A stretch of DNA of 64,000 nt. Source: Pempheris klunzingeri. Its lineage: Eukaryota > Chordata > Actinopteri > Acropomatiformes > Pempheridae. The stretch covers positions 13,326,328 through 13,390,327 of the forward strand of contig NC_092019.1 in assembly GCF_042242105.1 (NCBI RefSeq), in the 5' to 3' direction. A program made the translations under genes and the position numbers. Under the pieces are notes generated by a model, which worked only from the letters and a program-made list of their open reading frames with translations, made no database searches and had not been told where the DNA came from. Shown one piece after another: positions 1,201 to 12,169 of this stretch. The first letter of the stretch is position 1, and each line of letters starts with the position of its first letter.

Positions 1201-3602
1201 GTGAACCAAGTCCCATCAGTTTCTCTATGAAAGAGGAGGCAATGGAGGGTGAGGCCGTGTCTGCGTCCTGCTCTGTGTCTCACTCCTGTCCCACCTCTCC
1301 TCCTGTCTTCACCTGGAGTCACTCTGGAGGGGAACATTTCCAACAACAGCGACTCGACAATGGCCAGTGGAAAGCAACATCTGCTCTGACTTTTCACCCT
1401 ACCGGTGCTGCTCACCACAAGGTTTTACAATGCACTGTAACATACAAGGGAGGGCAGCACCATCATACATCCCAGGTCCTCAAAATTAAATGTAAGTGTA
1501 TATGGCAAGGGTGGTAATTAATGCTGATGCTTTAAACACTCTATAGTAAGTATATTTAATTGGACTTTTCCAAATGAAACATGATGGATTCCAAAGATGG
1601 AAACATAAACATGGTAAACATTATACCTGCTTAGGATCAGCATGCAGGCATCGTCATTGAGAGCATATTGCAATGTAAGAATTGGGATCGACTGGCTCAA
1701 ATCACTGCTGTTCTTTTGAGTCTCACAGAGCTGTAGCATGGCTGTAGTAAAAGAGAAATATGTGAATATAAACATAAGTCTGTGAGGATCACCATGGTAT
1801 CATTAACAGTTAATTGTATTTTTCCATGCAGATGCCCCAGTGAATGTGATGGTTGGCCACAGGTCAGATATAAAGGAGGGAGACGCAGTGAAGCTGAATT
1901 GCTCCAGTGACGCTAACCCCCCTGCCAGCAGCTATGAGTGGCATAGTGAATCTGGTGCTCGGCTGCATCAGGGAAATGTCTACATGTTGCCAAATGTCTC
2001 CAGACACACAGGAGCTCTGTACTGTACTGCCATTAATACGATAGGACGGGGCAAGTCGAGCCCTGCGCAGCTCAATGTGTTATGTAAGAAAACCATAAAA
2101 GAAATGTAATGAAAATGGGTAGAATTTTTATCTAAATATGCATAATAAAAATACAGCAAACTCATTACTACATTCCTTGTCCTAACAGATGCCCCTGAGA
2201 TCAAGACCGTCTCCTCCTGCTCCTTAGAGACAGATATGGTAATGTGTATGTGCATTGCGGAGTCCAAGCCACCCAGCATGGTCTATTTTGTGCTTTCTGA
2301 CAGCGTCCTGCCAAGCACTAAGGTGGAGAAACATGGCTTTGTTACCATCGGGACTCTGCAGGCAGATTTGGGATCTTCTAAGCTGGTCTACTGTCTGGCA
2401 AACAACACACAGGGAAATTCCACCCTCAGATTCATTTTACCTGTTAACAGTAAGGAAGTTTGTACAATTTCCAGAATGCATGACATATGCTTATAGACTG
2501 TGAGCTTCTTGAGTAAGAGAAAAATGACACATGGTTTCTGTTTGAACAGATAAAATGCAGAATCTTTACATTGTCATTGCCATTGGAGCAGTCTTGATCT
2601 TGATGATAGTTTTATTCGTGGTGGGAGTTGTTAAAAAACGGTAAGTTGGTGTAGAAAATATTTTTTCCATTGGAAACAAAAACAAAAATTTGTCTGTTTC
2701 TTTTTTTATTTACTTTACTTTACTTCTCTTTTAATTTACTTTATTTTTTTAACAATTGCATTCAAATTAGAGCGCTATAAGACAAGGTTTTTATAAATAT
2801 AGAGTGAAAATGTGTCTTATAATAGACCAAATCAGGGTTCGCTTGCATTTTCATCATAGATTAAGTTCAAATTCAAAAAAACTTTATTTGTCCCCAGGGG
2901 GCAATTACAAGGCACATAGAGCAGGCAGTGCAACAATGACAAAAAATTATAGCAGCAGACAAGACAACAGGCAGTACAGCTGTAGCACAAAAAGTATATA
3001 AGTGGAAAATAAAGGTAATGAATAAAAAAAAAGGTAAAGTAAATAAATAGAAAATAAATAAAATAGAAATAAGGCAAACTCAAAACTTAAATAAAGTAAT
3101 GTTTGCACTGTTAGATCTTTGAGGTTGTGAGAACTGTCAAAAGTTTATTTTTTCAGTGTCCTATATTAAAAGCTATTATTTTGTCAGTAGGGGGAGATCT
3201 CGGGATTCAGCAACATCTCAAATGAGCACCATGACGGCAAACAAAGATGTGGTGCTACCTCAGTATGCTGCAACAAAAAGGTTAGATATTCATTTCAGCT
3301 TAAACCAAAGTAACTTCATGATGTAAAATGTCATGAGAAAGCTAATCTTGCACAGTTTTGTATGCATTTATGTCATAAATTGGTTAGAAACCATGTTTGC
3401 ATTCTGTCCTCAGAAACGAAAAGACCTATGATGATGCACATTGCCCTAGCATTTATGGCAATGATCACATATATGGCAACATGGAGGTATGTAAGGTTTT
3501 TCTTCATTCATTCATTATTTCCATGCATGAAAAAAACTGAATGAGTTAATCTTGTTTCCTATACAGACTGACTGGGATGATGCAATATATGCCAATATGT
3601 AA
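1201..3602 (+). CDS. Siglec-like (CD22/MAG-type) Ig receptor, 3' part; 5' end lies outside the window
   Basis: Seven exons with consistent frames: 1201-1491, 1832-2083, 2189-2449, 2550-2640, 3191-3280, 3414-3486 and 3567-3602 (TAA). The first three each encode one C2-set Ig domain, all in phase 1 as in Siglec genes. Domain 1 carries the cysteine-rich ASCSVSHSCP motif typical of Siglec domain 2, so the missing upstream exons should hold the signal peptide and V-set lectin domain. Exon 4 encodes a membrane segment (IVIAIGAVLILMIVLFVVGV) followed by KKR. The cytoplasmic exons contain LPQYAAT, TYDDA, IYGND, IYGNM and a terminal IYANM. None fits the ITIM consensus; YGNM and YANM fit Y-x-N (Grb2 SH2) and Y-x-x-M (PI3K p85). 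Likely a leukocyte surface receptor. Ligand binding cannot be judged because the V domain is outside the window. Confidence 0.8.
2868..3085. repeat. Teleost interspersed repeat, fragment, with A/T-rich tail
   Basis: Within the intron between the membrane exon and the first tail exon, the phrase aactttatttgtccccaggg followed by a short spacer and gcacatagagcaggcagtgc resembles a repeat motif common in fish introns. It ends in an A-rich segment with aaataaat units. The family could not be fixed by eye. Confidence 0.4.
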
Positions 3603-5641
3603 CATAGTTGGATTCCCTGGAATAACAGCTGGTGTCCCTCCACATGTTGTCTAACTGATGTGGGTCAAGAGATCCGCAAAACATTTTAATATGCTATTTT
3701 TCTGTATTACATAAGTATTATTTTTCTGTCTTTCTGTAATTCAAATATATGAAAGAAATGTTCATATCTAAAAAGAACTTTACAGTGAATACACTTGTGT
3801 TTGCAATTATAGTTTCTCTCATTCATAACTTTGTATCAACACTTTTCTGGTCATAAGTAAGTGTGTTGTGAAAACCACCGTTAAACTATTATTTTATTCA
3901 CAAATATGTTTCATAAATTGTCCTTTTTATACAGTTTCAGTCATCCAACAACAACACATACTGATTAAATTACACTAAAGTGTGGCTTTTGAATTTCCTC
4001 TTTAGCAGGAACCATTGCTTTATCAGAGTGACAGAGTTTTGAAATGCTTATTTCCTGCTGAATAGCAAATGAAGTGCAGCTAGTTTAGACCTTTTTGTGC
4101 ACTACTGTAAAAGAAACATGGTCACAACATGTTATGTGCACTTGCCTCACAAGATGGTTGTAGTATCGTAAAGTAAAAACATTCGAAGGTATTTGTATGT
4201 ATGAACACATGACAGAAGTCTGTACAGTTTATGCACCTTCACAGACTGTATTCATACATTAGTCAATGTAATGTAAAAGTAATGTGAAAGTAATATGAAC
4301 ATTTGTGTGTGCTCAGGTCAGTGCGGAAAAACCCTTGTGTGGTTTGAACTAGTGTTAATGGTAAATTTACAGGAAGACAAAGGGGAAGCTCATCACCACC
4401 TTTGCTGATAGATAAGAGTAAAATGTGTGAAACTGTCACACATTTTAAACACAACCACACCAAACATCAACCAATTCTCACCTCGGTCGATCTGATCTGT
4501 ACACCACATTTATATGTGTTCAACACCCCTCAGTATAACGGGTTGCAATTCAACAGCACATTAAAGTGCCTCCTTCAAAGACCTAACATTATTATAATTA
4601 TTGCAAGACTGTTTTATTAGTAGTTTTGGTTGGATGTGCCTAGTAAACTAAGCGTGAAAAGGAACATTTAATCACAGAATGTAAATACTTTAGAAAAAAG
4701 GAAGAAAAATATCAAAATCTAAGGAATTCCTGAAAATTCAAGAAAATACAATAACCATGATATAATGAGCAGCATATCACTTTCACTAGAGCGATCGTAG
4801 AGCAGGTGTCCCTAACCTGGTCTACATCACTGCCATTGAGAATCAAAGAATCAAAACATGATTTTAAAATTGAAAATTGAAATTGAGATTCCTTGAAAGT
4901 TTAACCTCAATTGCCATGACATTCAAATTTTGAAAATATCTTTATTTTATTATAAATTCTGAACAATTAAAAACTAAATTCACTTATGCTAACCATGAAA
5001 ATCATACAATCAGCAAGCTTATTTTTTGGATTACTACATGCATTCAAAATTACTACAGATTCTGAACTTTGCTGGTTTATACACAATCATAATGAAATCA
5101 TTTCAAACACCACACACTTTCTCAGAAAAAAACACAGCTCTGTGAAAAGGAGGGGGGGTCATCTCACCCATAAAGTTACATAATATCTAATGTTAATAAG
5201 ACACAACCATGTTGGCTGTGAAGCTCAAAAGAAGCCTTAAACACAAAGTATTTCTGAAGTAAATCTATTCTGATCATCAGTAGCTCAGCAGATATGAGGT
5301 GTTCTGATCATGATCAACTGATCATGAAAGTGATTAAAGAGACATTTCTGGTCTTTCATATGACATGTTCTGTATTTCTTAACTGATTATGTTTCTTAAT
5401 TCACAATTTATAATGGCACGTACTTAATGCTCTGTCAATTCAGCTTTGGTCCAACAGTATTTCTCTGTCATCATACCACAGCAAGGTGATGGTTCTTATT
5501 CAGCTATCAACATCTGTGTGGTGAATACATTTGCACCAGTAGCAGCTGTAAGACACCAAACTATAGATTTCTTGACACACAGGACATGAATTAATTTACC
5601 CTGAGGTATTGGATTTTATAGGATATTTACTGTGGGCCACA
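3603..5641. other. Spacer between two convergent Siglec-like genes
   Basis: AT-rich. It should contain the 3' untranslated regions of the + gene ending at 3602 and of the - gene ending at 5642. I saw no exon-like segment with splice sites, no membrane-segment exon for the - gene, and no recognisable repeat. A small palindrome (tgatcatgatca type) occurs near 5307-5332. Confidence 0.5.
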
Positions 5642-6533
5642 TCACATCCTGAGAATGGTGGAGCTCTTCACCTGCTTCCCTCCTCTGTACTGCACTGTGC
5701 AGTTTAAAGGCTTGTTGCAGTCACTGGCTAGAGGGTTAAAGGTCAGGGTTGAGACTGTTTCCCACTTCCATTCATTCAGCCTCTTTGATCGGCGTGTGGT
5801 GACTCCAGAGCGGCTCCAGGAGATTTGAGGGGGAAAAGAAGGGCAGGAGTGAGACACGGAGCAGGAGGCAGTCACTTTACCATTCACCTTCACAGACAGA
5901 GATGGAGGCTGTGGATTGCCTGCAGGGTTTGAATATCATATCAATATGGCTCATCATACAGTGAATACAGTATTATTAATAAAAACTGTTCCAACGTTGC
6001 TTTAAAAAAGATAATCTATATGGTACTCACGTATAACATCAATGGACACTGCGTTGTTTGTGTAGGAGAAGCTTTTGTACTGTGGCATTTCAATCCTGAA
6101 GTAGAAAGGGCCAACATCAGCCTTCCTGACCCCATCCAGCAGAAAAGTGCAGTTGCGCCTTTGCAGGTCTCCCAAAAACAGGGTTCGTTTTTTGTACTCC
6201 TTAGATACTTTCAATTTGCGGAGATTAGTTGAGATGATCTGTTTTCCTTTCTTCCAGAATCCTCTCCACCTGTTCAGGGTCCCTTTGGAGACGGGCTTGG
6301 GGTAAGTGTGCATGCAGGGAATAACCACACAGGAGCCGTGCACGGCAGGAATACTCTTTGGTACATTTGCTGTCCATTGGGCGTTAGAGGACTGGACATC
6401 ATGGATCACTAAAAACAAGAAAAAAGGTTGATTTGTCATCTTACATGTTTAAGCTGAAGATCTTAAGTCTTTTATGCGACAGTCAAGACTCACCGTGCAA
6501 CAACAAAAAGGAAAGCCACAACTTCAGGTCCAT
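5642..6533 (-). CDS. Siglec-like protein with V-set and C2-set domains only, predicted soluble or 3' truncated
   Basis: Three - strand exons with closed frames: 6533-6494 (signal peptide, MDLKLWLSFLLLHG), 6408-6031 (V-set) and 5919-5642 (C2-set, ending in TGA), together 231 residues. The V domain shows the Siglec pattern: C-V-V-I-P-C, RWRGFWKKG, FLGD, NCTFLLDGVRKADVG and YFRIE. The arginine of FRIE is at the position of the sialic-acid-binding arginine of Siglecs. The C2 domain has ASCSVSHSCP like its + strand neighbour. The frame ends exactly where the paralogue at 1201-1491 has a splice donor: there AAAT|gtaagt, here AGGAT|gtgatg, a weak donor, and the reading runs into TGA. No membrane exon was found downstream. 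It could be a secreted decoy-type protein, a gene that has lost its 3' half, or a gene using the weak donor to unseen exons. Confidence 0.7.
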
Positions 6534-9897: not shown

Positions 9898-11990
9898 TTA
9901 TTTTGAATGATCCACATTTGCATATATACCCTCCATACTTTCATCCATCTGTCCTGGAGGAGCCTGCAAATATAGAAATATAGAAATTGAATTGTATGAA
10001 AGGTTCCCTGTGGAGTTTTCCCTGGGTTTTATTTTGAGTAACTTTCAAATGTAACTGGACGTTGGATATCTATTATTGGTGACTGTGGAATGAGAACGAG
10101 TAGTTTTGACTCTAATGTGAGGGAAGTGCTTTTGCCAGGTTTGTTAAACCTTGAAATGTGTTTTGGTGAGAATCACTGGATGTAACCTTAACTTTTGCTT
10201 GTTTCCAAGAAAACTCCACAGGGTGCCTTCAAGGTTAGCATCAGTTGTTAAAATGCTGAGAGTTGTACCTCCATGTTGATGTAGACAGGTTCATCAATGG
10301 CCTTCAGTGCAGGAAGCTTATTGTTGTCTTGTTTTATGCAAGATGCTTCTCTGAAAAGACAAAAGTTTGGGTTCTGATTTGAGGAACAGGAATTCATGTC
10401 TGAAATTCACATGCACACACATACAGTGCTTATACATATACATAATGATGAAAAATAATATCTCTGCTCTAAATTTATGTAATTATTGTATCATGAAACA
10501 AACCTTTCAGCTTGGTTTGATGATGGTCTGCTAAAATTTGCGTAATATCCAGATTCTTCCCTGATAAATGACTGTGACCTGTAAAAATAGGTTATTGCCA
10601 TGAGGCATGTTACTGGAAGTGATTATGAGTCACAGTTCATTAAAAATTATTTAAATCACATTGATTCCTTCTTTTCAGCATAACATATATGGCTCCTAAA
10701 CAAGCTGAGATGTCACACACTTGTTATCATATGTACATGTCTTGAACTGAAATTAAAGGTGAGCACAGAGAAATTTATGTGAAAGCGTGCCAAACTCTGC
10801 ACCTTCATCATTCTGCATTCTTCCATGTGTGCACATGGTTAATATAAGGAAAACACAAGTATCAGCATGAAACAAATACTTTTTCTGCTCATTACCGTTT
10901 GTATTTTTTGCAAAATACAATTCCAGCAACAAGGAGAATGATCAGAAGGGCAGCAATTGGTACAAAGATATACGTTGATGTTAAAATCCTCTCAGGCATA
11001 ACCGCTGTAAAGAAAATTATGATAATAATGACTTTTTTTTTTGATAAAGGAAATTGAATTACAGATTTTAACATATTAAATGTTAGAGAAACAAACTGTG
11101 CAAACTTACTTGTTATTGTTTCAGAGTTGTTAAATTGGGTGCCCGCAAAGTCTAAAAAAGAGATTTGTTTGTGTCAAAGTTTAAGCTGAGGTACGTCTTG
11201 TTTTAATTATTTGGGAAATATTGTACCACCTAATAGCAAATTGATGAGTACAGAAACAAATGATATAAACGTGGAGAGTATCATAAAAAATGAAAGGCCG
11301 TACCATTATAAGGGGTTGGAGATACTGGGATACCACCTGGCCATGTGGGAGTGAAGAGTGAAGTATTAATTTAATCTCCCTTTACTCAACCACATCAATA
11401 TGAATAAAATCATGATTAAAATGTTTTACTGAAATTCTCACCAGACACACTAATGGAGACAGAGTGATTTTTGAAACTGTAGTTGTCACAGTCTAGCTTA
11501 ACTCTCACATAGATATTTGGTTCATTCTCCGTGATGTTTTGGATCTTGAGGGTGCAATTAGTTTTATTTCCAATGAGCTTGGTCTTTCCTCTGTACTTCT
11601 CAAGCACAAAGTTTGGATTATTGTGATAAACAAATGGATTTCTGTCATTGTCTTCGATTTTTAAGTCATTTTTCCCTGCCTTTTTCCAGTAAACTTCTTT
11701 TACTGTAGTGCACTGTTTGTGCTCTGGATAGCTAAACATGCATGGTATGATCACATCTGAGCCATATGGTGTATGAATGCTTCTCATGACCTGAATATCC
11801 CAGTTGTGACCTGTGTTGAAAACAAAAGCAGATTTATAGAGATAAGATAATATTGTTACAGCAACAGAGGAGACAGAAAAGGTGCAGAAGTGTTAGTAAC
11901 AACAAACAGAAATAAATACAAATACAAAAATATTATATATATATATACACAGACACACACACACATACATTTACATATACATATATACAT

Positions 11991-12034
<44 letters not shown>

Positions 12035-12169
12035 TACATGTGGTATATACATTAAAGTGCACACTTCATAAAATAAAATTCAAAACAAACACATCAGCTC
12101 AATATCGCACCCACCTACAGAGACCAGAGTCAATATGAGGCTAAGATCAATCAGGCCTGGCAGCTTCAT
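9898..12169 (-). CDS. Siglec-like receptor with one V-set domain, membrane segment and Y-x-N tail
   Basis: Seven - strand exons close exactly to 265 residues: 12169-12115 (signal peptide MKLPGLIDLSLILTLVSVG), 11810-11442 (V-set), 11151-11110 (short stalk), 11004-10896 (membrane), 10578-10504, 10350-10269 and 9963-9898 (TAA). The V domain has V-I-I-P-C, YWKKAGKND, NCTLKIQNIT and YVRVKL; the arginine in YVRV lies where Siglecs keep the sialic-acid contact. The membrane segment is FVPIAALLIILLVAGIVF followed by CKKYKR. The tail carries YYANF, VYINM and IYANV, each a Y-x-N motif, and VYINM is also Y-x-x-M. The last two exons match the tail layout of the + strand gene ending at 3602, so the two are paralogues. 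There is no C2 domain, unlike classical Siglecs. Probably a leukocyte receptor; ligand unknown. Confidence 0.78.
11949..12032. repeat. CA/GT microsatellite cluster in intron 1 of the V-only Siglec-like gene
   Basis: A TA tract, a short CA tract, an imperfect TA/CATA stretch and a (GT)n run of about 20 units follow one another between the signal-peptide exon and the V exon. Confidence 0.9.

Follow-up and report, generated by a model that had tools for sequence, protein, structure and literature searches.

In the window analysed here, a stretch of 64,000 nucleotides from Pempheris klunzingeri (C8:13326328-13390327 of a 646-Mb genome), two Siglec-like genes, A and C, encode receptors whose cytoplasmic tails each carry three Y-x-N tyrosine motifs and no ITIM. 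With somewhat better than even confidence, we propose that these may be fish Siglecs endowed with the Grb2 arm of CD22, in three Y-x-N copies each, and with no SHP arm. The best reading of the tails of A and C would be that of CD22's Grb2-type site multiplied, the SHP sites being absent. The proposal builds on the gene models and the kinship of the encoded proteins, on the motif content of the tails, their shared exons and their lack of ITIMs, and on the uncharged transmembrane (TM) spans.

Three Siglec-like genes (A, B and C) occupy the first 12 kb of the window. Gene C lies on the minus strand (12169-9898) and is modelled as eight exons forming one 276-aa frame, every modelled intron being bounded by GT...AG:

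12115..12169, minus strand: exon 1, encoding the signal peptide MKLPGLIDLSLILTLVSVG (opens with ATG, GT donor, reading frame continuous with that of the V exon)
11442..11810, minus strand: exon 2, single Siglec-like V-set domain (gene model, PDB matches, V-domain alignment)
11304..11336, minus strand: short stalk exon, optional, the frame being intact with or without it (gene model)
11110..11151, minus strand: second short stalk exon (gene model)
10896..11004, minus strand: TM exon with uncharged span (gene model)
10504..10578, minus strand: tail exon 1, SGYYANF (gene model, acceptor 9.4)
10269..10350, minus strand: tail exon 2, PVYINME at the exon end (gene model, acceptor 12.4)
9898..9963, minus strand: tail exon 3, EGIYANVDHSK and stop (gene model, acceptor 11.9)

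The stretch 9898-10578 (minus) corresponds exactly to the three tail exons, and their acceptor scores (9.4, 12.4 and 11.9) are the highest among the candidates listed for that stretch. The V exon of gene A is not inside the window but some 80 bases before its start (matched at C8:13325908-13326246), and the rest of gene A, followed by gene B, is as follows:

1201..1491, plus strand: gene A, C2 domain 1 (gene model, PDB match)
1832..2083, plus strand: gene A, C2 domain 2 (gene model, PDB match)
2189..2449, plus strand: gene A, membrane-near C2 domain resembling the last domain of MAG (gene model, PDB match)
2550..2640, plus strand: gene A, TM exon with uncharged span (gene model)
3191..3280, plus strand: gene A, tail exon 1, with one tyrosine outside all motifs tested (acceptor 8.4)
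3414..3486, plus strand: gene A, tail exon 2, SIYGND and, at the exon end, HIYGNME (acceptor 6.5)
3567..3602, plus strand: gene A, tail exon 3, AIYANM as C-terminus, then stop (acceptor 10.2)
5642..6533, minus strand: gene B, signal peptide 6533-6494, V domain 6408-6031 and C2 domain 5919-5642 running into a stop (model, 231 aa)

No TM segment, tail or other exon of gene B was found by tblastn with A, B and C, and we read gene B as a decoy that is secreted, or else as a truncated or decayed member. A fourth Siglec-like gene, D, is located upstream of the window and consists of V, C2, TM and a short tail, in which reading by hand revealed no tyrosine motif. The remainder of the window (18139-64000) contains, as judged by domains, a TBC-domain gene, HSP70, a trypsin-like gene, a rhodopsin-type GPCR, an HSP20-like gene and a PHD-finger gene, the last of which we take to resemble KMT2B, the name being a guess. 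In human, CD22, MAG, HSPB6 and KMT2B are neighbours in 19q13.12, and the gene order of the window may be conserved synteny with that region.

That the genes are Siglec-like, as the preliminary description had it, is borne out by PDB matches and an invariant arginine, with gene C as a reduced member of the family. The best PDB match of both A and B is MAG (3e-23 and 8e-21, respectively), CD22 reaching 4e-17 and 1e-15, and gene B exceeds the Pfam Ig_CD22 cut-off. For the V domain of gene C the best matches are Siglec-5, CD33, sialoadhesin and MAG (6e-6 to 1e-4); Siglecs account for 18 of its 52 matches with E up to 10, including the best 17 (6e-6 to 9e-4), and the first non-Siglec appears at 0.022. 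A genome scan with Pfam Ig_CD22 gave 26 matches, 17 on C3 and 9 on C8, among them the V exons of A and B; gene C has no Ig_CD22 match and is not among the 26, its V-set match in Pfam being under the cut-off. All four V domains (A, B, C and D) have the arginine of the sialic-acid site (as YVR in gene C), which aligns with the FR of Siglec-5, CD33 and MAG; in CD22 the sialic-acid-binding arginine is R120 (PMC7226832). As regards CD22 orthology, the CD22-like V domain at C8:21954413 is the stronger by score, with 138 bits for Ig_CD22 versus 29 bits for A and likewise for B. Siglecs have a characteristic cysteine pattern: the first V strand contains two cysteines, NCxL contributes one, and a partner lies in the next C2 domain. 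A, B and D retain this pattern in their V domains and gene C does not, the first cysteine being missing (GSDVIIPC, Asp taking the place of the Cys found in A, B and D), which counts against gene C being a canonical Siglec. Since gene C also lacks a C2 domain and thus has only one Ig domain, it is a stripped member. Its V domain contains two further cysteines (HKQC, KLDC) that are absent from those of A and B, and a re-wired disulphide is possible; the AlphaFold model of this domain, computed with no alignment, has a mean pLDDT of 46, too poor to judge the disulphide. On these comparisons, A and C are probably divergent Siglecs of fish that belong to the CD22/MAG branch. No relatives of genes A and C were found in viral contigs, nor any of gene A in bacterial or archaeal contigs.

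Both tails contain five tyrosines, three of which lie in Y-x-N (YGND, YGNM and YANM in gene A; YANF, YINM and YANV in gene C), so that the repeated Y-x-N motifs of the preliminary description were confirmed for both genes. Its statement that none of these motifs fits an ITIM held as well: the ITIM ([ILVS]xYxx[ILV]) was matched by regex at 0 of the 10 tyrosines, and a relaxed ITIM and the ITSM-like TxYxx[VI] were likewise found zero times in either tail. When compared with the Siglec types, A and C therefore do not belong with the ITIM Siglecs (0/10), nor with the DAP12 type, K, R, D and E being absent from both TM spans, and what they do possess is the ITT/Grb2-docking motif Y-x-N, at three of five tyrosines in each tail. 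Methionine occupies position +3 in just three of the six sites. At least three Y-x-N arose in 383 (gene A) and 506 (gene C) of 200,000 composition-keeping shuffles, i.e. 0.2-0.3%, and 94% (A) and 88% (C) of shuffles were free of ITIMs by chance; missing ITIMs alone are not unusual for tails of this composition. The two tails have equal exon number and equal phases, Y-x-N-M-E ends tail exon 2 and I-Y-A-N sits in tail exon 3 in both, and the shared motifs differ by silent codon changes (TAT/TAC for Tyr, GCC/GCA for Ala). Such common motifs with silent differences, set against V domains that are only 36% identical, suggest constraint on the tail motif, for the one paralogue pair compared. Because A and C are relatives, their tails do not represent two independent cases. 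A scan for alternative ITIM exons (acceptor score of 7 or more, donor score of 4 or more; from the TM exon to 5600 on the plus strand for gene A and down to 7500 on the minus strand for gene C) yielded none for gene C, at cut-offs that miss the real donor of its exon 10350-10269, and one poor candidate for gene A, 5583-5707, partly antisense to gene B; the scan is not exhaustive, the cut-offs also missing gene A exon 3414-3486.

For some of the 26 Ig_CD22 matches, the flanking sequence was read with the same exon finder, or by tblastn with the tails so found. Eight other tyrosine-motif tails were obtained, each with an ITIM; the hand-read tail of gene D, a ninth, has neither ITIM nor Y-x-N. 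The eight motif-bearing tails are:

MAG-like gene: LNYAAL, SNYTEI; ITIMs, without Y-x-N
CD22-like gene: YENV, LNYSRV, TQYSDI; YENV beside ITIM
Gene at C8:21945209: YVNK, LHYANV, TEYAEI
Three tandem copies at C8:21.96-21.98 Mb: VEYxxI/L, TEYAEI, and YSNV near the C-terminus
Two C3 tails: LYYASV, VEYTVV and YSNC in one, LQYASV in the other

All eight contain an ITIM and six contain Y-x-N. Each of the three tandem copies combines an ITIM with TEYAEI and YSNV, so the ITIM plus Y-x-N combination is the local design, and the presence of Y-x-N in the CD22-like gene and most other tails implies that the motif belongs to a CD22-like kit and is not an invention of this pair. What is peculiar to A and C, as far as these sequences go, is the lack of ITIMs, the three copies of Y-x-N and the methionine at +3. 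Counted per tyrosine, Y-x-N is found at 6/10 in A and C versus 7/27 in the eight tails (p 0.12, not significant), ITIMs at 0/10 versus 11/27 (p 0.018) and YxxM at 3/10 versus 0/27 (p 0.015), the last two p values deriving from small samples, related and non-independent sequences and a search that was mostly motif-guided. In this count LHYANV and VVYSNV enter twice, as ITIM and as Y-x-N, and gene D, a gene with a lysine in its TM stretch (C8:8636182) and an ITIM-like exon at C8:8639367 (IVYSVL) are omitted. A smaller count, of five of the eight tails plus gene D, gave 6/10 versus 5/18 for Y-x-N (p 0.12), 0/10 versus 11/18 for ITIM or ITSM-like motifs (p 0.0016) and 3/10 versus 0/18 for YxxM (p 0.037). 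Motif-free tails are under-counted, because the search mostly asked for exons with an ITIM, an ITSM-like motif or Y-x-N; the copy at C8:21987499 had no recognisable tail exon, and none was recognised in stretches L021, L023, L025 and L026.

Two other Siglec-like loci were noted. In the gene at C8:8636182-8638200 (plus strand), Siglec-like V and C2 exons precede a hydrophobic stretch that contains a lysine (ILLVGIGVKVVILLFLP) and has a stop close by, and the gene looks like an activating, DAP12-type Siglec; the ITIM-like exon with IVYSVL at 8639367 belongs to its minus-strand neighbour, in a paired-receptor-like arrangement. On C3, a large CD22-like tandem array (2.83-2.93 and 3.34-3.40 Mb) holds 17 of the 26 Ig_CD22 matches, and a retroelement reverse-transcriptase-like frame is present inside it (minus strand, about 3393-3609 of stretch L026).

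Among known receptors, CD22 (Siglec-2) is the closest model. It shares with these genes the V and C2 ectodomain and, in the tail, a Grb2 site of the form Y-x-N-V together with a YXXM, but has ITIMs and more C2 domains, whereas A and C are ITIM-free and C has a single Ig domain. In mouse CD22, pYxNV at Y828 recruits Grb2 and its tyrosine accounts for about 70% of negative Ca2+ regulation in DT40 cells, and the N830D mutation significantly diminished inhibition, which was nearly abolished when four other tyrosines were mutated as well (PMC5302901). CD22 has a YXXM, undergoes endocytosis and is associated with AP50 (PMC6173129). The preliminary description had contrasted A and C with inhibitory CD22. 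This contrast does not survive, since mouse CD22 lowers Ca2+ largely through its own Grb2 site (PMC5302901), since CD22 has YXXM (PMC6173129) and since the P. klunzingeri CD22-like gene itself has YENV together with an ITIM. MAG (Siglec-4) is the best PDB match of A and B, and A also resembles it in the membrane-near domain, but the MAG-like gene of P. klunzingeri has ITIMs (LNYAAL, SNYTEI) and no Y-x-N.

Membrane IgG (mIgG) and TIGIT are not Siglecs. Their tails have the motif type of A and C and likely use the same adaptor, but IgG signals with Ig-alpha/beta and TIGIT also has an ITIM. For the Y-x-N-M of mIgG, which comes nearest to these tails in motif, the direct partners identified were Grb2-family adaptors alone and did not include p85 (PMC4263166), and the ITT-like motif of TIGIT together with Grb2 brings in SHIP1 and inhibits (PMC7395714). 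The teleost Ig receptor IpLITR 1.1b of catfish has a Y-x-N Grb2 site at Y463, but belongs to the LITR family and also has ITIMs and an ITSM (PMC4810170). Tilapia On-CD22 (LOC102077587) is, like these receptors, a short fish CD22-like protein (356 aa), but is reported to have an ITSM-like motif at 335-341 (PMC12837193), and marsupial CEACAM1-related receptors have Y-x-N beside an ITAM (PMC2832619). For two salmonids and pikeperch, Siglec1, CD22, MAG and Siglec15 have been treated, with ITIMs in MAG and trout CD22, and the Siglec tail classes described are the ITIM and DAP10/DAP12 types (PMC7226832); a term search of the main text of that paper, and of PMC5112662, returned neither Grb2 nor YxN. 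The preliminary description had seen here an undescribed signalling design. In respect of the motif this was too much, Y-x-N being already known from CD28, IgG tails, TIGIT and a fish LITR, but an ITIM-free Siglec tail with Y-x-N only was absent among the literature matches listed (partly the best 20 of 55, 121 and 36; few subscription journals).

How such receptors would work can be outlined from these precedents. The V domains of A and C may bind sialylated glycans, as suggested by the retained arginine, a Src-family kinase would phosphorylate the Y-x-N tyrosines, and the phosphorylated motifs would dock Grb2-family adaptors (Grb2, GRAP, GADS) in tandem, the VYINM of gene C possibly taking p85 too. 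A and C would then do what CD22 does through its Grb2 half, or IgG through its tail tyrosine, minus the phosphatase half. Of the Grb2/PI3K signalling put forward in the preliminary description, the Grb2-type motif is supported by sequence and family context, but the PI3K part is weak, mIgG Y-x-N-M having bound the Grb2 family only (PMC4263166), and PI3K was demoted from co-equal partner for this reason. Since the users of Y-x-N span CD22, mIgG, TIGIT, LITR and CTLA4, the motif would predict Grb2-family docking, and possibly endocytosis, but not the sign of the signal. We lean slightly towards dampening (as in CD22 and TIGIT) over costimulation (as in IgG and CD28), because this is what the Y-x-N site of CD22 does.

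Against the proposal stand the relatedness of A and C, the Y-x-N share with its p of 0.12, the small and related samples behind the ITIM and YxxM counts, the frequency of ITIM-free shuffles, the sub-cut-off V-set score of gene C with its missing Ig_CD22 match, and the overlap with YxxPhi. It could be that A and C are sialoglycan uptake receptors whose tyrosine motifs are mainly endocytic (YxxPhi, AP-2), Y-x-N being secondary, which we consider a serious rival although an unlikely one. YxxPhi fits three of the five tyrosines in C and two of five in A and covers five of the six Y-x-N sites; CD22 is itself endocytic and AP50-associated (PMC6173129), and the YxNF of teleost CTLA4, to which the YANF of gene C corresponds, supports clathrin-mediated endocytosis (PMC11599192). 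Yet asparagine at +2 is not needed for YxxPhi and is nevertheless found at all five YxxPhi tyrosines, and YGND carries the asparagine without fitting YxxPhi at all. Rather less likely still is costimulation of the CD28 kind, in which Y-x-N-M would take up Grb2/GADS plus PI3K. Three of the six sites are Y-x-N-M and YxxM occurs at none of the 27 tyrosines of the eight other tails, but p85 prefers a bulky hydrophobic residue at +1, and VYINM is the sole site that has one. The Y-x-N-M of the CD28 family has been read as binding PI3K and Grb2/GADS (PMC11599192), whereas the direct partners of mIgG Y-x-N-M were Grb2-family adaptors alone (PMC4263166). That A and C are relaxed, decaying receptors of a cluster whose ITIMs are gone, with leftover Y-x-N as remnants without selected function, is improbable: gene B does stop after C2 and the gene D tail has no tyrosine motif, but A and C have open frames through every modelled exon, with GT/AG borders, and the motifs keep their positions though most other tail residues differ between them.

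The proposal of Siglecs with a Grb2 arm and no SHP arm bears on the family as a whole. In the mammalian CD22 tail, an ITIM-SHP-1 phosphatase arm is mixed with the Grb2 arm and the two are hard to separate; if the proposal is true, Grb2-only Siglecs would let nature show cleanly what the Grb2 arm does, and would extend the Siglec tail types described so far, ITIM and DAP10/DAP12 (PMC7226832), by a third. One may go further, though only tentatively, and suppose that teleosts possess a third Siglec class, neither ITIM-bearing nor DAP12-coupled, made up of small lectin receptors with pure tandem Grb2-docking (ITT-type) tails at a locus with a tail-less secreted member, in which sialic-acid sensing would lead directly to Grb2 without SHP.
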